A stretch of DNA of 55,689 bases from an uncultured Saccharospirillaceae bacterium (lineage in GTDB: Bacteria > Bacteroidota > Bacteroidia > Flavobacteriales_D > CAJJDF01), in assembly GCA_950054195.1 (NCBI GenBank), contig CATLPG010000016.1, positions 1-55,689 on the forward strand. The letters are read 5' to 3'. Positions 2,040 to 55,689 of this stretch are shown in pieces (the stretch's first letter is position 1; each line of letters opens with the position of its first letter). Position numbers and translations under genes: made by a program. The notes below the pieces were generated by a model. That model saw only the letters and a program-made list of their open reading frames with translations. It searched no databases and was not told where the DNA came from.

Positions 2040-2181
2040 ATATTAATACTTTATAAACAAGCTTATAGTTAGTGTAAGTAGTTTTAGTTCATTATTATTT
2101 AATTTATTCAGGAGCTGTTTTCTATCTACAGCATTAAGAATAGGTTTAAATATAATTAAGTTATCACTTATAGCCATTAAA

Positions 2182-3816
2182 CTAATTAAACTTTATTGTT
2201 TTGATAGGGTTAATTCTACCAATAAATAAACTAGCCAAGAATAGAATTCCGTAACAAACAGCAATTGTGAAAACATTAATTATTAAAAAGTCTAACCATT
2301 CAAAATCCATAGGAACTTTATTTAAAAAGTAATTTTCTTGTGGTAGTTTAATAAGTCCAAACTGTTTTTGAAGAATAATAATGACAAATGCTAACCCATT
2401 GCCAATAATTAATCCTCGTATCATAATATATCCTCCCAGCGAAACAAAGATGCGTTGGATAATTTTATTTTCAGCTCCAAAGGCTTTCAGTAAGCCAATC
2501 ATATTACTTCTTTCAATAATTAACACCAATAATAAAGAAGTGATGTTCACTATGGCAACCAAAATCATTAAAACAATGATAACAACCACATTCGTGTTTA
2601 AAATATTTAGCCAACCAAATATTTCTCGGTATGCATCTGTAATTTTTGTTGCTTTTAATAAGTCTTCAGAAACACCAATTTCTTGATCAACTTTATCTAT
2701 TAGTGAAAAGTCGTTTAAAAATACTTCGTAACCACCAATATAATACCTCATACTCCCTTCGCCATTTTTTGTAACGGAAGTTATTGATACACTTTCATTA
2801 CTATAATTTCTTGTAGAGTCGTCAATCGATTCGTACTTCATAATGCCGCTGCAAGGGCAAGCATTACCATCAACGCTTAATTTGATATAGGCAGAATCAG
2901 CTAAACCAACAAACACACGCTCCATGCTACTGGTGTAATCAAACGAAATAGACTTTACCTGTATAATCGTGTCTTTTTTAGGACAAATGAAAAGTTTATT
3001 ACTTGTTGAATAACCCTTCCCCCAATCGTATAAGTATTTTTTATTACCCCCAAAGCTTTTAGCCTCTAGAAGTAATTTCCCATCAAAGCAATTTTCATTT
3101 AAAAATAAGGTTGTTTGTATTCCCCAATCATTGAGTTTTTGGATGTGGCGGATATCAATAAACGTAAATTGTTTATCGAACTCTTCTAAACCAGTTTCAT
3201 AAATACCAGAAACAATAAAACGTTTTAATCGTGGTCCGTTACCTTTAATGAAGTAACAAGCTATAGCTTCACCAACATTCAGCTTAAGCTTTTTACTGAT
3301 GTGCTTTGATATAATTATTTTGTTAGAAGGTTTATCTGAGTTCCATTCGATGGCTTCTCCCTCAATAATTTTGTCCTTTAGATTCTCCCAGTTAAAATCA
3401 TTATTAACTCCTTTAAAAATTACTCCCTCAATGTCTCTAATGATTTGTTCTTCATCATTATTTATTTTGACAGTGTCAGCTTTACTTTGGATAATTCCAG
3501 GTTTCAAAGCAAACGTTTGAACATGTGATACGCCCTCAATGGATAAAATTTTATCAATATAAGCTTGTTTAAGCTGAATAGGAGTTGATTCAAACGATTG
3601 GTTAAAGCCCCCTGCACGAATTTGAATATGACTTCCAAAGTTTACTACCTTCTGAGAAATCTCCTTTTGAAAATTCTTTACAATTGATACAGCTAATAAC
3701 ATAACCATAATACTTATAGTTATGCTAATTATTGATACGCGAATAATAGGTTTAGAAAACTTGTTTCCCGACCTTAATTCTTTTATTAGCTTTTTTGAAA
3801 TAAATTTGCTACTCAA
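2182..3816 (-). CDS. ABC transporter permease, LolC/LolE (FtsX) type
   Basis: This 544-residue inner-membrane protein has the layout of lipoprotein-releasing permeases. One transmembrane segment lies near residues 25-48, a large periplasmic domain (MacB_PCD-like) follows, and a C-terminal FtsX block has three hydrophobic segments (about 408-435, 455-480 and 510-535). The start 'FISKKLIKELRSGNKFSKPI' matches the 'FIAKRYL' type of start in this family. Such permeases work with a LolD-like ATPase to extract lipoproteins from the inner membrane; no ATPase gene is adjacent here. The periplasmic domain is long, which is common in Bacteroidota. The window's many lipoproteins fit, but do not prove, a Lol role; a MacB-type exporter is the alternative. 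Confidence 0.8.
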   Translation of the reverse strand: MSSKFISKKLIKELRSGNKFSKPIIRVSIISITISIMVMLLAVSIVKNFQKEISQKVVNFGSHIQIRAGGFNQSFESTPIQLKQAYIDKILSIEGVSHVQTFALKPGIIQSKADTVKINNDEEQIIRDIEGVIFKGVNNDFNWENLKDKIIEGEAIEWNSDKPSNKIIISKHISKKLKLNVGEAIACYFIKGNGPRLKRFIVSGIYETGLEEFDKQFTFIDIRHIQKLNDWGIQTTLFLNENCFDGKLLLEAKSFGGNKKYLYDWGKGYSTSNKLFICPKKDTIIQVKSISFDYTSSMERVFVGLADSAYIKLSVDGNACPCSGIMKYESIDDSTRNYSNESVSITSVTKNGEGSMRYYIGGYEVFLNDFSLIDKVDQEIGVSEDLLKATKITDAYREIFGWLNILNTNVVVIIVLMILVAIVNITSLLLVLIIERSNMIGLLKAFGAENKIIQRIFVSLGGYIMIRGLIIGNGLAFVIIILQKQFGLIKLPQENYFLNKVPMDFEWLDFLIINVFTIAVCYGILFLASLFIGRINPIKTIKFN

Positions 3817-5486: not shown

Positions 5487-8400
5487 TGTAACGAAAGAAT
5501 ATGACCCCTAAAGACATATCTTTCATCTGTGTTCGGATCAATAGATTTTAATTTCCACACATAAACACCTGATGGTAATAATTGGCCATTTTCAGTTCCA
5601 TCCCAAGCTTCTCCAGGTACAATTGAAGTGAAAATTAAATTACCCCATCGATCAAAAATAGTAAGCTCATAGCCATTTTCAGTAATTACAGGGTGTTGAG
5701 GTAGAAATTCATCATTAACACCATCATTATCGGGCGTAAAAGTATTAGGAACATACATAGCAAATAAATCATCGATAACGATGTCTCTGTAAACTGTGTC
5801 TGAACATCCATCGGCATTAGTAACTATTAATTGAATTTCATAATCTCCTCCTTGTTTATCAGGATATTGAATAACTGGGTTTTGTAAATCAGAAGAATCA
5901 ACAAAATCTGGATCATCAATACCAAAATCCCAATCCCATAATACAACATCATTGGTTGATAAATCGTTAAATGTCATTATAGCAGACAAAACATTTGTGG
6001 GTTGTGGACCAACTTGAAAATCTGCAGTAGGATAACCATACACACTAATCATTTGCTGGATGGTAGTATCAGAAACACAACCAGCAGGAGAAGTAACAGT
6101 TAACCTTACATCGTAAACACCAGGTGAGTCATAAACTACTAGATTAGTAATAGGGTTTTGAACGCTTGTTAAATTATTATATCCAAACTCCCATAGTACT
6201 GTTCCAACTCTAGCAGGGTTAGTTGTATTAGTAAATGTAACATTTAAAGGGTAACATCCAGCAAGTGTATCGGCTTCAAATTGTACAACAGGAAACTCAT
6301 TAGAAACTTCAACACGAACATCAGAAGTATCTGCACAACCACTAGAGGTATCAGTAACAATTACTGTATATGTTGTCCCAGTATCTGGGGTTGAAGTTGT
6401 CATGGCTTCAAGCGGATCATTAACAGTAGCAGAAGGCTCCCAACTGTAAGTGAAATTAGCAAATGAAGAACAGCTAATTGTAACATCATCTAATAGCCAA
6501 TAGTCAAATGCTCCAGAAGTATAATTAGTTGTAGGTTGTATAAAACGTAAGATTACAGGTGACGTAGAAGCTGGAATTGGAACTGATTCAAATTGAAAAA
6601 CAGCACTAGTAACAGCGCCCCATGCACTTATGTCGAATGTTCTTAATGTAATCCAAGAGGTTCCTCCGTTGGTTGAATATTCTAGCAATAAATCATCAGC
6701 TGATTCAGGTGAATTACACGTCCCAGAACCACCGTTTGCAGGCATTAACCAAAACTCTATTGTAGAGCAGGAATTTCCTTGTAAAGGAACTGTTTCTGCT
6801 ACTCGAACTCCTGTTTCGTCATCAAACATTAAACTACCATTTGATCCATTATTAGTTCCGCAATTACCTGTTATTGTAACTCCTGATAAGTTTGCCCAAA
6901 GAGCACCAGGTGTTCCCTCAAAATCTTCCTCTAGATCTAAAATAGCTGTTGAACTATCAATTGCAGCTGTTAGATTAACTGTTTCATTACATCTTGCAGT
7001 ATCTACACTAGCTAAAGCAGTTAGAGCAGGTTTAACACCTTGGGAAACGTTAACTTGCAGTTGATCATTTTTAATGCAGCCTAAATCTGAAGTTATTTGC
7101 AAATCAAATATCAATAATCCACTTTGTGTTGGAGTCATAGTTGGATTAGCACTAGTCGAATCACTTAACATATCTCCGGGAGACCAATCATAGGTATAGT
7201 TACCGGCAGGATTTGGAATTACTTCGAAATCTACTGGGGTAGCTTGACATGAGGCTGTAGCACTTTGATTTAATTGGTAAGTAAAATTTGGAGCAACTGT
7301 AACTGTAACTGTATCGTTGCTAGAACACCCTCCAACTAAATCACTTGATACAACATAGGTTGTTGTTGTTGACGGATTTGCAATTGGGTTTGGACAGTTG
7401 TTACAAGAAAAGTTTGTTCCAACATTAATTGGATCACCACTAATTGAAGTCCAAGTAAAATTAGAACCTCCAGTTACATTAAACTGTACACTGTCTCCCA
7501 TACAGATTGTTGTATCTTGGTTGGTAGCTGTACTTCTAATAACTCTCAAAACAACTGAAAAAGCTGCTAACCCAACCACTGGACAAGCATTATCTCGAAC
7601 ATCAAAATTAATAGGGTTAAATGTATTAGCACCACCTTGCACTGTACCACATATAGTAGCTGTAATTGGATTTAATCCTGTATAAGTTAAAGTCGCGTTG
7701 GGTAAAATATTTTGAATGTTTGAAGTTACAAACAAAGAATCACCAGCATCTGGATCTTCTATAACGATATCAAAACAAAAATTATCTCCTTCACAAGCTT
7801 GAAATTCCTTTTGTCCGGTAATACTACCATCTCCTGTACTATTTGTAATTGATAAAGATGCGGCATCTACAACTTGGTTATTACAGTTTTGAACAACAAA
7901 TTGAATATCCCTAAACGTTTGCCCAACAATATTACCGTTTACATCATACTCTGTCGCTTGCACAACAACAACAAAATTACCTAAAGTTGTGGGAGTAAAT
8001 GTTAATTGACCTGTATTAGGATCAAGTGTTATCCCTTGAATTGGATTTGTAGGAGAATAACCAGGCATGTAGGTTAAGTTGATAGCAGGATAGCTTTCAG
8101 TCGCGTCTATAAAACTATATACAACACTATCACCATCAGGTTCAACCACACCAAAATTATAGTTTACTGGAATGTTTACACACACGTAAGGAATTGGATG
8201 AGCAGTAAAGTCTGCTGAGCTATTACATGGAGCGGTTACACTATTAATTGTAGCAGAAAGCTGAGTCCCATAAAAGTCAGGATCATCTAAATTAACAATA
8301 GCAGCATTTCTACAACAAGTTGTGTAGTAAATTGTCCATGAATCACAAGCTGCAGGAAAAGTAACAGTTCCTGTATATTCATAAAGTTCCATTCCAGGCA

Positions 8401-48750: not shown

Positions 48751-48828
48751 GCTGTAAATCTTAATTCTATTGAAGTTAACGTTTTTTGTAAACGTTTAAA
48801 AGTAAAGGTTGGTTAACAAAACATAACC

Positions 48829-48853
48829 TATCGCTTGTTTGCAATGAGTGCTA
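48829..48853 (-). repeat. Dispersed hairpin repeat, degenerate element C
   Basis: TATCGCTTGTTTGCAATGAGTGCTA resembles element C (GCGCTCGTTTGCAACGAGTGC) with changes that weaken the stem. It lies in the 190-nt gap between the SDR gene and the next minus-strand gene. Confidence 0.5.
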
Positions 48854-49505: not shown

Positions 49506-49746
49506 ACTTACTAGATTTAAATATTTTTTGTAAAAAATATAACAAAAATCATGCCGTACTTTTATGATTTATTAATAGTTTAAACTAGGGTTAATAGTTT
49601 GGGGGTGTAGATAATTTTGTATGTACAAATCAAATTGAGAATTCGTTAGTTTTTTATTTCAAACACATATTAATCAATTGTTAATTGATGTTTGATGTTT
49701 GATTAAGGCCTTTTGTTATATGTTTTATGGTTAAATTCAGCTAGCT

Positions 49747-49763
49747 TATCGCTTGTTTGCAGC
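49747..49763 (-). repeat. Fragment of the dispersed repeat
   Basis: TATCGCTTGTTTGCAGCT shares its first 14 nt with the degenerate element at 48829 and then differs. It sits 20 nt past the LRR lipoprotein stop codon. It appears to be a truncated copy. Confidence 0.4.
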
Positions 49764-49782: not shown

Positions 49783-50928
49783 CTATCTCTTTGATTTATC
49801 GATAATTCGAACATTTGGAATTAGACTTTTAATTTCTTCTATGTTTTTTATTTTGTGAGCATCTACTAAAAAGTATCCTAAATTTTCTAGGTTTTGTATT
49901 TGCTTAGGTATCGTTTCAAATTTATTGTTGTGAATCCATAAATTATGCAGGCTTAACATTTTAGTACATTCTTTAGGAAAAGTTTCAAAATTGTTATTGT
50001 CTAAGGTGAAAAATGAAACATTCTTCAAGTTAGAGATAGATTTAGGCAAACAACTTAGTTTGTTAGAAGCTAAACTTAAGGACCAAAGAGTAGTTAAGCT
50101 CCCTATTTCTTCTGGGATGGAGTCTAATTTACATGCAGATAAATTCATTTCTCTTAATCGTTTTAATTTGGCAATACTTTTTGGAATTTGTTTAAGTCTG
50201 CTGGCATTTGCACTAAGTATTATTAACTTATCTAGATTACCTATTGATTCTGGTAATTCGGAAATTAGTGTTCCAGATATGCTTAAATATTTAAGATTTT
50301 TTAATGTGTCAATATTATCAGGTAATTTTTTTGTTGTTCTTTTGGTTAAGATTAAACTGTATACCTCGTTTGGGTTTTTCAAAGCTTCTTCAAAAGAAGA
50401 TGCTTTTTTCATGTTTTTACAATCAAAATCAACTAAAAGCTTTTGATTAACTATATCGCTTAGTAAATCTTGTAGTTTTGTGAACTTAAATATTTCATCT
50501 TCATTTAATAAGGAGTATTTAATTTTTATATCAGACCTTCTATAATCTGTAAATTGTTGGGTAAAGGTGGTATCGTTTATATTCTTACTTATTTTCATAT
50601 AGCCCATTTTTTTTACGAAAGGGTTATAATAGAAGTTAGTGTCTCTAAAGTCATCAATTGTAAATAATTTAATGACACTATCTAATGAGTTGTTTTTACC
50701 TAGGTGATAGGTTTCATTGTGATTAAGAGTTAAGATTACACTATCCTCGTATATATTAAACTTTGCATTTGGACTAAACAGACCAAATTTTTTATAACTC
50801 TCGATTTCTCCCATTAATTTTACTTCTAATGGATATAAAGGATTTGTAATTTTCTCTTTTTCAGTTTTCAGTTGTGAACAACTGTAATTAACTAAAAAAG
50901 TAAGTAGAATCAATTGATATAATTTCAT
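49783..50928 (-). CDS. Leucine-rich-repeat lipoprotein
   Basis: This 381-residue protein has a lipoprotein signal ('LTFLVNYSC', Cys17). Residues 20-160 are a beta-rich N-terminal part without a known fold. Residues ~195-365 contain about seven leucine-rich repeats of the 'LPxxIxxLxxLxxLxLxxNxL' type, e.g. 'ELPESIGNLDKLIILSANAS', 'SIPEEIGSLTTLWSLSLASN' and 'TIPKQIQNLENLGYFLV'. Such bacterial LRR proteins bind other proteins. The partner is unknown. A good promoter lies just upstream, so it is probably expressed alone. Confidence 0.85.
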   Translation of the reverse strand: MKLYQLILLTFLVNYSCSQLKTEKEKITNPLYPLEVKLMGEIESYKKFGLFSPNAKFNIYEDSVILTLNHNETYHLGKNNSLDSVIKLFTIDDFRDTNFYYNPFVKKMGYMKISKNINDTTFTQQFTDYRRSDIKIKYSLLNEDEIFKFTKLQDLLSDIVNQKLLVDFDCKNMKKASSFEEALKNPNEVYSLILTKRTTKKLPDNIDTLKNLKYLSISGTLISELPESIGNLDKLIILSANASRLKQIPKSIAKLKRLREMNLSACKLDSIPEEIGSLTTLWSLSLASNKLSCLPKSISNLKNVSFFTLDNNNFETFPKECTKMLSLHNLWIHNNKFETIPKQIQNLENLGYFLVDAHKIKNIEEIKSLIPNVRIIDKSKR

Positions 50929-51010: not shown

Positions 51011-51882
51011 TCAATCACATTCCAAAAGTCTACTTTACCTTTTTTACTGGTTTGATAAAAAATAGCAAAATCACTAGAAACCATCCAGTCGGTATCTGGA
51101 ATATACAGGATGGCATTAAAATACAATCTATTTGATCTAACACTAGTAAAACTGATCTCTTTTAATATGGATTGTTCAAGAAATTCGCCCGACAAACTGT
51201 CTTTAAACGTGTGCTTGTTGATCGGCTTTGATAAGACAAGTTGATCTTTGTACATTAAAAATATATCAGACTGATAATCATGATAAATGTCTTTGTAGAT
51301 ACTTGGTTTGTTTAAGGTGTTAATTCTTGTTATAGAGCTGTTATTTAAGGAATATGACTTAATAATTAAATCATATTTGTCATTACTAATCCGAATGGTT
51401 TTTCTTTCTGTAAGTGTATCTAGGTTTTTGTCCCAATAGATAATAACTGTGTCGCTTTTCTTAGAATTGAAATTTCTGATTTCCTTTTTAAAATTAGCTT
51501 TTTCAGAAACTGATACTACATTTTCAATCATAGCTTTTTCACAGGCTCCAAATTTAATGAAGTTGTTTCGAGCTTCACGTAGTGTTAAACCACTATTTGG
51601 AGCTGATGGAACATCTAATTGGTCGATAGCTAACCCATCATCCTCCCAAAAGCAAATAGGGCAAATGTCGTAATTAGCTCGTTCACTAAGTGTGAAGTAA
51701 TCACAGCAAGGACATTGAAGTTCATCACTTATTGAATTTTTAGTCTTCCACTCTCCAGATTTTTCCAACTCATTTAATTGTTTTTCAAAAGCCTCATCAA
51801 TCTCAATTTTATTCTTTTTTGATGAATTAGAAGTACAAGAAAAGAGCAAGCTAAGAAGCAGTATTACAGGTATGTTTTTCAT
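51004..51882 (-). CDS. Lipoprotein with a CPCC cysteine-rich domain
   Basis: This 292-residue protein has a lipoprotein signal ('LLLSLLFSC', Cys16). After a short linker come 'LQCPCCDYFTLSERANYDIC' and 'PICFWEDDGL', then 'NSGLTLREARNNFIKFGACE', which match the CPCC cysteine-rich domain family, normally a small cytosolic zinc ribbon. The ~170 residues after it are beta-rich and unfamiliar. The CPCC domain attached to an export signal is unusual. The leader is nearly identical to that of the lipoprotein gene starting at 53053. Confidence 0.8.
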   Translation of the reverse strand: MKNIPVILLLSLLFSCTSNSSKKNKIEIDEAFEKQLNELEKSGEWKTKNSISDELQCPCCDYFTLSERANYDICPICFWEDDGLAIDQLDVPSAPNSGLTLREARNNFIKFGACEKAMIENVVSVSEKANFKKEIRNFNSKKSDTVIIYWDKNLDTLTERKTIRISNDKYDLIIKSYSLNNSSITRINTLNKPSIYKDIYHDYQSDIFLMYKDQLVLSKPINKHTFKDSLSGEFLEQSILKEISFTSVRSNRLYFNAILYIPDTDWMVSSDFAIFYQTSKKGKVDFWNVIDL

Positions 51883-51885
51883 TGA
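51814..51885 (-). repeat. Duplicated lipoprotein leader, copy 1
   Basis: A 72-nt stretch covering the first ~22 codons and 3 nt upstream of the CPCC lipoprotein gene matches 52985-53056 at 68 of 72 positions. The rest of the two genes is unlike. It encodes the signal peptide, lipobox and 'TSNSSKK' linker. Confidence 0.85.
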
Positions 51886-51947
51886 ATGGGAAATATGAAG
51901 TTAACGGCAGGTTTATGATTTTTTTGAATAGAATGGTTAAATAAAAT

Positions 51948-52525: not shown

Positions 52526-53053
52526 TTAATTATCATTAGTGTGTTTTTGCAAGGGAGTTACTTTATGATATAAAAACGTTCTACCTGGTCCAAGTTCACC
52601 TTCATCACCCATAAGTTGTGGTTCTTTGTAGAATTTACCCGAAAATTTAAATGTTAAGTCGGAAGAGGAGTCTCTAAAATCAAAAGGAGAAAGTAGCGAG
52701 TCATTCACTGGTAATACATGACAAAATATATCTAAATTCTGTTTATCTATAGAATTTAGTGAGTCGAATTTTACTAAGCTATCAGGATTGATCCACTGTG
52801 GACATGGACAACCCCAACCATAATATTGTAATATTAGATTAACAGTATCTTTTTCTAGTAATTTGTCATATTTTTCTGACTTAAAATGATTGACACTGAC
52901 TTCGGTAAATTTTGATTCGATAGAGTGGTTGGTGTCTGTTTTTGTTACAATATTTTCAAAAGTCTCATTAACCTCAAGTTGGTCCTTTTTTGATGAATTA
53001 GAAGTACAAGAAAAGAGCAAACTAAGAAGCAGTAATACGAGTATGTTTTTCAT
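52526..53053 (-). CDS. Hypothetical lipoprotein sharing its leader with the CPCC lipoprotein
   Basis: This 175-residue protein has a lipoprotein signal ('LLLSLLFSC', Cys16) followed by 'TSNSSKK', the same as in the CPCC lipoprotein. After residue ~24 the sequences diverge. The mature part holds 'YYGWGCPCPQWINPDS' (a CPC motif) and ends 'GELGPGRTFLYHKVTP'. Function unknown. The CPC motif may bind metal or form a disulfide. Confidence 0.7.
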   Translation of the reverse strand: MKNILVLLLLSLLFSCTSNSSKKDQLEVNETFENIVTKTDTNHSIESKFTEVSVNHFKSEKYDKLLEKDTVNLILQYYGWGCPCPQWINPDSLVKFDSLNSIDKQNLDIFCHVLPVNDSLLSPFDFRDSSSDLTFKFSGKFYKEPQLMGDEGELGPGRTFLYHKVTPLQKHTNDN

Positions 53054-53056
53054 TGA
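52985..53056 (-). repeat. Duplicated lipoprotein leader, copy 2
   Basis: This copy matches 51814-51885 at 68 of 72 positions; the four differences lie at or near codons 5-11 of the leader. The similarity stops soon after the SSKK linker and about 3 nt before the start codon. Confidence 0.85.
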
Positions 53057-53084
53057 TAGTAAAATACTAAGTTTAACTTAGTTT

Positions 53085-53145: not shown

Positions 53146-54315
53146 CTATCTATTCTTCCTTTTCTTTTTCTTCTTCTTTTCTTTTACACCAAAATTTGAA
53201 GATGCAGCAGGTTCCATTTTTTTATTAAAAACAAGAATAGCAGATTTTTTTAAACTTGGATAGTCAATATCATCAGTAGACCAACCGTAGGGGTAAGTAT
53301 GATGTACACCGCTTTTTTCTCTTTCACATAAAAGGTGTTTAGCTCCATCTTCTTCTAGTTGTAAGGTCTTTTCTGTCATTAGAGTTCTATCGACTGATTT
53401 ACCATCTTTACTTAATAGATAAATCTTGTACATAATATCAAGGGTTTCTTCAGCTTCTTTAAAGTAACGGTAGGTTACTGCTTTTTGCTCTTTCCATTCA
53501 AATTCATCTATTGCTACACTACCATATTTTTGATATTCTTCGGATAAAGCTCCTTTTTCATATTGAATTTTCATTAATTGAAAAAGGCTATCTCCTTTTG
53601 AATAATTTTCATTTGCATAGTACGCTTTTATTAATTTAGGATATAAATCATAATTATCTTGTTCAAGTGAAACCATTTCGGAATAAGCTTTGATAGAATT
53701 TTCATAATTCTTGAATACAGTATACTCTAAGAGTCCAATTGATTTAAGTAACTCCAAGTAAATAGGATCTTTTTTATTTATTAAGGAAGCACTAATTCTA
53801 TATTCTTCAAGGGCTTTATTATAATTTTCTTTAATATGATAAATACTCGGAATTTTAAGGTATGGATCACCCAATTCGAATTCTAACGCTCTTGCCTTAT
53901 AAAAATATGTTAGAGCGGAGTCATACTGACTTTGTAAATAGAATGTATTACCTAACTCAGTATGATTTTTTTGTCCTTTAGGATTTCTGTTAATTGCAAG
54001 TTTAAAGTTTTCTATGGCTTTATCATATTGCTTATCATACCTCAAAGAGAGGCCTTTATATAAGTATATGTAATCATCATCTAATCCTTTTGCAATGGCC
54101 TTATCATACATTTCGATTGCTTTTGTATCATTTTCAAGTTGAAAAAAAGCATAGCCAACACAGTATAACTGATCTTTTGTTAGCTCTTCTGATTTATCTG
54201 CAAACTTTATAAGTTCTTGATAGTTTCGGCTACTGTATAATTCTTCAACGGTTTGTGAATTAGCGATAGTGAATGCAACGCTTAAAATTAGTCCGAGTAT
54301 TAGTTTTATTTTCAT
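53146..54315 (-). CDS. Secreted TPR protein with Lys-rich tail
   Basis: This 389-residue protein has a signal peptide ('LGLILSVAFTIANSQ', cleavage about residue 20). Tetratricopeptide repeats cover residues ~35-260: 'YCVGYAFFQLENDTKAIEMY', 'YIYLYKGLSLRYDKQYDKAI', 'HTELGNTFYLQSQYDSALTY', 'SIYHIKENYNKALEEYRISA' and 'YPKLIKAYYANENYSKGDSL'. A C-terminal domain of ~100 residues follows. The last 12 residues are almost all Lys and Arg ('KEKKKKKKRKNR'). TPR units mediate protein-protein contacts. The tail could bind nucleic acid or acidic surfaces but is more likely disordered. Confidence 0.85.
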   Translation of the reverse strand: MKIKLILGLILSVAFTIANSQTVEELYSSRNYQELIKFADKSEELTKDQLYCVGYAFFQLENDTKAIEMYDKAIAKGLDDDYIYLYKGLSLRYDKQYDKAIENFKLAINRNPKGQKNHTELGNTFYLQSQYDSALTYFYKARALEFELGDPYLKIPSIYHIKENYNKALEEYRISASLINKKDPIYLELLKSIGLLEYTVFKNYENSIKAYSEMVSLEQDNYDLYPKLIKAYYANENYSKGDSLFQLMKIQYEKGALSEEYQKYGSVAIDEFEWKEQKAVTYRYFKEAEETLDIMYKIYLLSKDGKSVDRTLMTEKTLQLEEDGAKHLLCEREKSGVHHTYPYGWSTDDIDYPSLKKSAILVFNKKMEPAASSNFGVKEKKKKKKRKNR

Positions 54316-54400
54316 TTCTTTAATTGTTTGTGTTGTGATGGATTACGTGTGTCCAGCGTATCCCGAAGGGTATGCACTATAGCCCTTGTTAGCTGTAGTT

Positions 54401-55024
54401 TTATCCTATTAATGTAATCATATCTTTTTCGTAGTTGTTATATATACTCCAATTCAATAAGTCGATTATCTTTCTAGCTTTATTTACTGTATAGTCTGTA
54501 GTAAGGTCGAACTCATTGCCAAAATCATTTGCCAAATTTGAGAAGCAGTCTTTTACTTTTTGCTTCGGATTACCTTCTTCGCAATGAATTGATTGATTTC
54601 TACCTTGCCAAATCACATTTTTTAATGTTTCTGAACCAATATTTCTACCTGGAGGACAATTCGAGGGAGCACCATGTACTGTCGAAATCCCTTGTTTAGC
54701 TATTTGCAATAGGCTCATGCTCAAAGAGTTCATGGAGTCATTTTTTGCCAATATTGATTTCGCAAGAGCATCCAACTCAGCTTTTTTACCCTTTAAATCA
54801 TTTTGTTCAGCAAATTTTGCCATTTGGATAAACTTGTATTGAACCTGTATTTCATTGAAGTCTTCATGCATGTCAGCTGTTGAATAGTCCCAAAATAAAT
54901 TGTCAAAGACTTTCTTTAAACTGTCAAATTTTTCAGTCAAAATTGAGAGTCTATTTTCTTCGTTATGAATTGTGTCAATTAGACTTTGAGCTGCATACTT
55001 TGTATCAAGCAAATATTGATTCAT
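54401..55024 (-). CDS. Helical protein with RNxxxH (HEPN-like) motif, partner of the TIR protein
   Basis: This 207-residue cytosolic protein has no signal or membrane segment. Residues 1-110 are predicted all helical, with coiled-coil-like stretches ('ENRLSILTEKFDSLKKVFDN', 'KKAELDALAKSILAKNDSMN'). The key motif is 'VIWQGRNQSIHCEEG' (137-151): Arg142-Asn143-x3-His147 fits the Rx4-6H active site of HEPN ribonucleases. A further helical region ends the chain ('VNKARKIIDLLNW'). I read it as a probable HEPN-superfamily RNase or its relative. It overlaps the TIR gene by 4 nt on the same strand, so the two form one unit. The family is not certain without structure comparison. Confidence 0.55.
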   Translation of the reverse strand: MNQYLLDTKYAAQSLIDTIHNEENRLSILTEKFDSLKKVFDNLFWDYSTADMHEDFNEIQVQYKFIQMAKFAEQNDLKGKKAELDALAKSILAKNDSMNSLSMSLLQIAKQGISTVHGAPSNCPPGRNIGSETLKNVIWQGRNQSIHCEEGNPKQKVKDCFSNLANDFGNEFDLTTDYTVNKARKIIDLLNWSIYNNYEKDMITLIG

Positions 55025-55662
55025 ATATTTTCTATTTCCTTTTCAATTCGCTTTAAAACTCTATCCCTTTTTCTTTCCCAACTGGAATTGTCTATAGCAG
55101 ATAGATTAAATAGCTTTTCCAATTTTTCTTTGAACAGATTAAGTTTTAAGCTCTCATTAATTTTAAATCCTTGAATCATTGGAATTACACCTTTAACGTC
55201 ACTATAATCAAATGGAGGTATTAAAATGGGGATATGCTCATTAGTTTTAATCCATGTCGCACCCATTTCACATAGGCAAACTGGACTAGCGTAAAAATTA
55301 TTTGATAAAACGAACAGAACAAGAATATTCTCGTTCAACTCATCCTTTATTCTATCTAGAAAATCTTCCCCTAAATCAATTCCATATCCATCAAAAGAAC
55401 TACAAAATATTTGGGTACTACTTAAGCCGATAGTTTCAATAAGGTCAATTAATTCTTCTACAAAAACCTTGTCTTTTGAGGAGTGACTAATAAAGACTTT
55501 GTTAATAACCGCATTGTCATTATTCTGGTCGTTAATATATTCTTTTGGCTCTTCATCTAGCTCTTCTATGTATGCAGAAATGTTCTTTTTTGTCATTTCA
55601 AAGTCACGTCTGAAACATCTTATGTGCTCGGATGTATGGTCATCCCCAAGAATAGAAATCAT
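55021..55662 (-). CDS. TIR-domain protein (possibly 5'-partial)
   Basis: From ATG 55662 this frame has 213 residues. The TIR domain spans about 54-175: 'KVFISHSSKDKVFVEELIDL' (55-74), the BB-loop region 'IFCSSFDGYGIDLGEDFLDR' (85-104), 'VLFVLSNNFYASPVC' and 'LCEMGATWIKT' (130-140), where Glu132 fits the catalytic glutamate of NAD-cleaving TIRs. Bacterial TIR domains act in phage defence by cleaving NAD+ or making signal molecules. The frame stays open upstream to the window edge for nine more codons without a stop, so the gene may extend beyond. Residues 1-50 have no known domain. It overlaps the HEPN-like gene by 4 nt. Confidence 0.82.
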   Translation of the reverse strand: MISILGDDHTSEHIRCFRRDFEMTKKNISAYIEELDEEPKEYINDQNNDNAVINKVFISHSSKDKVFVEELIDLIETIGLSSTQIFCSSFDGYGIDLGEDFLDRIKDELNENILVLFVLSNNFYASPVCLCEMGATWIKTNEHIPILIPPFDYSDVKGVIPMIQGFKINESLKLNLFKEKLEKLFNLSAIDNSSWERKRDRVLKRIEKEIENI

Positions 55663-55689
55663 AGGGCTGTAAAAGAATTTGAGCTTTCT

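Follow-up and report, generated by a model that had tools for sequence, protein, structure and literature searches.

The last 1.3 kb of the window (the whole 55,689-nt stretch of DNA analyzed here) is filled by two minus-strand frames, one encoding a TIR protein of the SpbK family and the other a helical protein with a conserved RNQxxH motif. These are probably two separate, adjoining defense genes rather than a new two-part system, because each is found elsewhere without the other. The explanation that we favor, and consider fairly probable, is that the two adjoining genes are autonomous antiphage genes, one for an SpbK-type NADase and one for a single-gene HEPN-like RNase. The initial annotation had taken both genes to be of the defense kind, which is borne out by the SpbK-type TIR and by the defense neighbors of the helical family, but it had also joined them into a TIR–HEPN module, and this part did not survive comparison with other genomes. 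The TIR gene adds one more member to a known kind, and the helical family, which we call the RNQ family, is the more useful result.

Gene Layout at the Contig End

The window comprises an entire contig (C16) of a 3.27 Mb genome assembled into 118 contigs. Window and contig end together at position 55689, where the TIR gene is cut, and the assembly has no sequence beyond this point. The TIR frame (55021–55662, minus strand) encodes 213 residues from its first ATG and is open on to base 55689. The translation upstream of this ATG, RKLKFFYSP (including LKFFYSP), aligns with the N-terminal domain of relatives. Because the contig ends here and the upstream piece aligns with that domain, the gene must be truncated, with its sensor half not visible; the ATG at 55662 is not its genuine start.

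The stop codon of the TIR frame (TGA, 55021–55023) runs into the start codon of the helical frame (ATG, 55022–55024), so that the 4-nt overlap reported initially is a true ATGA overlap. The start of the helical protein, MNQYL or MNDYL, is common to its family, and the overlap is therefore independent of any doubtful start. The two genes are probably co-transcribed here.

Both frames are real genes and neither is a chance ORF, as shown by the close relatives of the helical protein at 83% (uncultured Aquimarina, locus L011) and 72% (L015) amino acid identity and by the distribution of codon changes; further relatives are 56% (L010) and 52% (L012) identical. Compared with the L011 gene, the three codon positions differ at 24, 13 and 96 sites, respectively, the differences being concentrated at the third position and amounting to 73 codon changes that are synonymous and 35 that are not. 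The DNA likeness to L011 and L015 ends at, or a few bases from, the ends of the helical gene. The features of the window are listed in Table 1, together with the neighbors of helical-family genes at other loci.

Table 1. Coordinates of features in the window and neighborhoods of helical-family genes at other loci.
Feature	Coordinates	Strand	Basis or detail
Putative SpbK-type TIR NADase gene, 5' end missing	55021..55689	(-)	PADLOC spbK, PDB 9phb, contig end
Gene for 207-aa helical, HEPN-like protein ("RNQ family" in this work)	54401..55024	(-)	46- and 52-member alignments, AF2
ATGA overlap, TIR stop/helical-protein start	55021..55024	(-)	sequence itself
Putative catalytic Glu132 codon (numbering from ATG 55662)	55267..55269	(-)	alignment to 9phb CLNEMGATW
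RNQSIH motif, residues 142–147, putative RNase active site	54584..54601	(-)	52-row alignment, helix 134–150
Conserved end of second core helix, residues 106–117 (LQIAKQGIS, 106–114)	54674..54709	(-)	alignment; helix 77–117
3' flank containing ACAGCTAACAA; resembles the 5' half of an integron attC-type site	54370..54400	(-)	L011 match
L011 neighbor			AbiGi, 8 nt downstream of helical gene
L015 neighbors			PDC-S31, HEPN_AbiV
L016 (Nostoc foliaceum)	5878-6665		helical gene flanked by hsdR and hsdM within a type I restriction operon
L023 neighbor			pAgo; helical gene 72 nt behind pAgo, whose upstream partner is weakly TIR-like
L025 neighbor			AriAB-like
L027 neighbor			PIN_12
L030 neighbor			HEC-06/Orf5-like
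L034 neighbor			Tmn-like
L037 neighbor			PifA-like

The stretch from 48.9 to 54.3 kb has a GC content of 0.29, versus 0.33, and carries an LRR lipoprotein-like gene and a TPR gene (49783–50928 and 53146–54315). Two neighboring lipoprotein genes share a 121-nt 5' end (51782–51902 and 52953–53073; 86% identical) encoding the same signal peptide; their bodies differ, one consisting of CPCC and DUF4738. A short intergenic repeat with a TGCAAACAAGCGATA core (minus strand) occurs at 48810–48843 and 49728–49761, around small accessory genes.

The TIR Gene Belongs to the SpbK Family

The conserved core that had been recognized in the TIR frame is matched by Pfam TIR_2 with an E-value of 1.3e-11. The best PADLOC model is spbK (E 8e-49, profile positions 109–307 of 308), followed by a next-best model at 4.5e-7 and by the ThsB models at 2e-6 or worse, and the sole sequence match in the PDB is SpbK itself (9phb, E 2e-27). 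By sequence, the window TIR is thus an SpbK homologue of the NADase type. Glu132, located within SPVCLCEMGATW and proposed initially to occupy the catalytic place, corresponds in the alignment to the Glu of CLNEMGATW, which is residue 216 in the 9phb construct of 290 residues. Taking the 24 extra residues over native SpbK (266) as an N-terminal tag, this corresponds to native E192, a residue that is implicated in NAD+ binding and has been mutated as E192A (PMC12847820). SpbK mutants are described in the same study, and the catalytic glutamate and the filament residues around it are N191, E192, G194 and W197 (PMC12847820). Where SpbK has NEMGATW, the window protein has CEMGATW, retaining the E, G and W and substituting C for N.

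The N-terminal domain is retained in relatives of 275 aa (L055) and 308 aa (L053), and others are longer fusions. Of the window gene, the TIR domain and only the end of the N-terminal helical domain are present. A search of the other contigs of this genome did not find the missing 5' end or N-terminal domain, and no TIR relatives were found on the viral contigs searched.

The N-terminal four-helix domain of SpbK (residues 1–94) binds the phage portal. SpbK is an NADase in which binding of the portal protein YonE by the N-terminal domain clusters the TIR domains, and YonE and SpbK alone are enough for growth arrest (PMC12847820, PMC11984713). We infer that the window gene likewise encodes an NADase-type antiphage protein. 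Its N-terminal helical domain would presumably recognize a structural protein of the phage, for example the portal, whereupon the TIR domains would cluster and hydrolyze NAD+, and the infected cell would be killed or arrested.

One plasmid of Priestia megaterium (L100) carries a cluster of three TIR genes with a macro-domain gene; one of these TIR proteins is 55% identical to that of the window over its TIR domain.

A Widespread Helical Family with a Near-Invariant RNQxxH Motif

The helical protein has no real match in Pfam, PADLOC, NCBIfam or PHROGs. Profile searches of the PDB with the whole helical alignment and with its C-terminal part gave chance matches only, and a Pfam scan of all family members gave scattered chance matches. 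Searches of genomes, plasmids and phage contigs yielded 46 distinct members of the family. Six distant ones came from 395 genomes of the phylum by profile search, for an alignment of 52 rows. Members come from Bacteroidota, Bacillota, Cyanobacteria, Proteobacteria and others, as well as from plasmids and phages; three of the 395 class genomes, that of the window included, carry the gene. The family is undescribed yet widespread.

The RNxxxH motif noticed initially at residues 142–147 reads RNQSIH, and RNQxxH is kept throughout the 52 members, down to ≈25% identity. N143 and H147 are present in all 52 rows, and R142 and Q144 in 51 of 52; one close member (L033) has Cys in place of the motif arginine. 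Near-invariance of the motif leads to one clear prediction, that H147 is catalytic. The end of the second core helix is conserved as well (L106, 52/52; Q107, 51/52; Q111 and G112, 46/52 each).

An AlphaFold2 model built from 36 sequences (mean pLDDT 93.9) is mostly helical, with helices predicted at residues 3–49, 77–117, 134–150, 155–168, 183–190 and 195–206. The first two form a long coiled-coil hairpin (residues 3–117), and RNQSIH is predicted to lie in the third core helix, 134–150, towards its end. A second HEPN motif, Ex3[KR] in helix 2, occurs in many HEPN families and is not universal. It is absent from the helical protein, in which helix 2 has the near-invariant Q107, roughly where the E is expected, and conserved K110/Q111, with no conserved acid. 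In HEPN RNases, helix 3 ends with Rx4-6H, the residue after the R being in most cases N, D or H (PMC3710099), and RNQSIH has both this spacing and a polar residue after the R.

Structure searches with Foldseek and VIA-align, using the full-length model and a short-coiled relative from a phage, were dominated by coiled-coil matches with no HEPN among them, and they neither show nor refute an HEPN fold of the core. The profile of DUF4145, an HEPN family, aligned with the helical profile with the motifs in register and a score of 17.4 at a weak E-value of 0.11, compared with a maximum of 12.2 for 40 column-shuffled controls and 12.2 for the reversed profile. What stands of the HEPN-like partner proposed initially is an invariant RN-x3-H in an HEPN-like position. 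We describe the protein as HEPN-like rather than as a proven HEPN.

We considered the possibility that the helical protein is not an HEPN RNase at all, but some other all-helical protein, be it a binding protein, a regulator or an antitoxin-like partner, that uses RNQxxH for another purpose. Such a role would agree with the empty searches of Pfam, PADLOC, NCBIfam, PHROGs and the PDB, with structure matches devoid of HEPN, with the long coiled-coil hairpin, which is atypical of HEPN, and with the lack of a conserved acidic residue in helix 2. We nevertheless think it unlikely, in view of the motif spacing, the N after the R, the position in the helix and the near-absolute conservation, all of which fit an HEPN active site, and of the in-register DUF4145 match above controls and the defense-type neighbors. 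For an HEPN-like RNase, the coiled-coil hairpin would probably be the sensing or oligomerizing part, and the helical core with RN-x3-H would cut RNA once phage infection had been sensed.

Genomic Surroundings and the Question of a Conserved Pair

Genes of the helical family adjoin a variety of known defense genes (Table 1); these assignments are look-ups of chosen neighbors, with no random-gene baseline. On two related phage contigs (L007 and L008), the family is represented by a lone gene in antisense orientation, with phage genes on both sides. At this shared phage locus, the helical proteins are 61% identical and the neighboring gene 93%, after which different genes follow, as expected for a fast-changing accessory gene in a variable accessory spot. 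The lone occurrence in phages supports a single-gene function. Because the gene is located in defense islands and stands alone in phages, the helical protein is most likely an autonomous abortive-infection RNase.

All 46 helical-gene loci (≈0.49 Mb) were queried with the window TIR and a TIR profile. An SpbK-type TIR adjoined the helical gene at none of the 45 other loci. Two weak TIR matches were found, a 184-aa frame ≈3.5 kb upstream of the helical gene at L011 (E 3e-4) and the gene before pAgo at L023 (E 5e-4). Conversely, none of 17 TIR relatives among 395 same-class genomes had a helical gene within ≈1.5 kb, and further distant helical members were also without a TIR. The helical gene has no conserved upstream partner; its upstream neighbors vary by locus, except for resolvases and near-identical records. 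The neighborhood comparison, with one pair in 46 helical and 18 TIR loci, thus led us to reject a conserved TIR–HEPN two-gene module.

The 4-nt overlap is a common sign of coupled translation and might reflect a joint function, which would speak against separate genes. In a true two-gene module, the TIR would sense the phage and produce a nucleotide signal (e.g., N1-cADPR) that activates the HEPN-like RNase, as in Thoeris, where TIR and effector genes share an operon. SpbK does make N1-cADPR, for which the receptor is unknown (PMC12847820), and the L023 member, with the weakly TIR-like partner of its pAgo neighbor, would also fit. However, the ATGA overlap is unspecific: the TIR relative at L055 likewise shares 4 nt with an hsdS-like gene, so that tight overlap alone is weak evidence for pairing. 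Moreover, SpbK arrests growth without a partner, and in phages and many genomes the helical gene is present with no TIR, besides the single occurrence of the pair. We therefore consider a module of this kind improbable.

A narrower version, in which a rare pairing lets an ADP-ribose signal from the TIR (such as N1-cADPR) switch on the RNase via the coiled-coil hairpin, is very unlikely, given the distribution. If true, the pair would be a TIR system that acts through an RNase, and this RNase might be the receptor of N1-cADPR, a product so far unexplained.

Two autonomous genes remain the preferred reading. The helical family is widespread, in no family library searched, borne by phages and plasmids and adjacent to known defense genes; if its members are solo HEPN RNases, they add a testable single-gene defense family.

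A Cassette Signal at the 3' Flank

The closest relative of the helical gene, in an uncultured Aquimarina (L011), lies in an integron-like cassette array in which genes are spaced by ≈160-nt repeats. As in integron cassettes, a repeat's 3' end pairs, across the intervening gene, with the 5' end of the following repeat; the sum of matches, 58, was reached by 2 of 720 permutations, with the ends picked by eye before the test. The array (L011 3500–11300) has ends of the RYYYAAC/GTTRRRY type, and its cassettes hold an HNH-like gene, the helical gene with AbiGi in one cassette, and others. In the window, the 3' flank (54370–54407) is 90% identical over 39 nt to L011 7421–7459, the cassette end that follows AbiGi.

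These observations raise the possibility that cassette exchange at an integron-like site brought the TIR gene and the helical gene together, their adjacency having no functional meaning. We consider this conceivable but somewhat doubtful, and it is also compatible with two autonomous genes. The 83% identical gene in its repeat array with pairing ends and the shared flank speak for it. Against it, the window flank is single-copy in a genome-wide repeat check, by which the 54.3–54.4 kb intergenic piece was rejected as a genome-wide repeat; the upstream cassette end, expected to be GTTAGCTGTAG-like, would lie beyond the contig; and no integron integrase exceeds the curated cut-off in the window genome or in five of the other Bacteroidota genomes with the helical gene. 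Tyrosine recombinases match the integron-integrase model below the cut-off only, and the 14 control genomes match as well. The cassette signal in the window sequence is thus a lead only. The Aquimarina cassette position would extend integron-borne defense to Bacteroidota.

The best integron-integrase match of the window genome, below the cut-off, is a 378-aa tyrosine recombinase (2177–3313) on a 4.5 kb contig (C112) that also has a reverse-transcriptase frame (175–1446) resembling a group II intron protein.

Comparison with Known Systems

The closest known system to the TIR gene is SpbK of Bacillus subtilis ICEBs1, with which it aligns over the length of the TIR, including the Glu in CxxEMGATW; the full-length relatives have the SpbK layout of a C-terminal TIR following an N-terminal helical domain. 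Unlike SpbK, the window TIR has its N-terminal domain mostly missing, comes from a Bacteroidota host and is followed by an overlapping gene. Thoeris (ThsB TIR plus ThsA) is similar in that a TIR gene adjoins a second defense-type gene, but was rejected, the TIR being of the SpbK type (8e-49 vs. 2e-6 for ThsB). The neighboring gene matches no Thoeris model and is neither SIR2, TM-macro nor caspase-like, and the pair is not conserved.

Within the HEPN superfamily, the profile nearest to the helical family is DUF4145 (PF13643). The likeness lies in the Rx4H with N after the R and, by the predicted model, in helical structure and in the place of the motif towards the close of core helix 3. A DUF4145–TIR fusion has been listed (PMC3710099), and the defense-island context is also common to HEPN and the helical family. 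The helical family differs in having no library-profile match, in its coiled-coil hairpin, in Q107 with no acid in helix 2, and in the invariant Q144 and conserved E149. An HEPN protein from an integron cassette (PDB 3jrt; PMC3710099) resembles the L011 case of an HEPN-like gene in a cassette array, but it comes from a different phylum and has no sequence match to the helical protein. AbiV (PF18728) likewise has no sequence match and is typically without the H of Rx4-6H (PMC3710099). Nevertheless, AbiV and other solo HEPN abortive-infection proteins are like the helical protein in size (≈200 aa), in being encoded by a single gene and in lying near defense genes or mobile elements.
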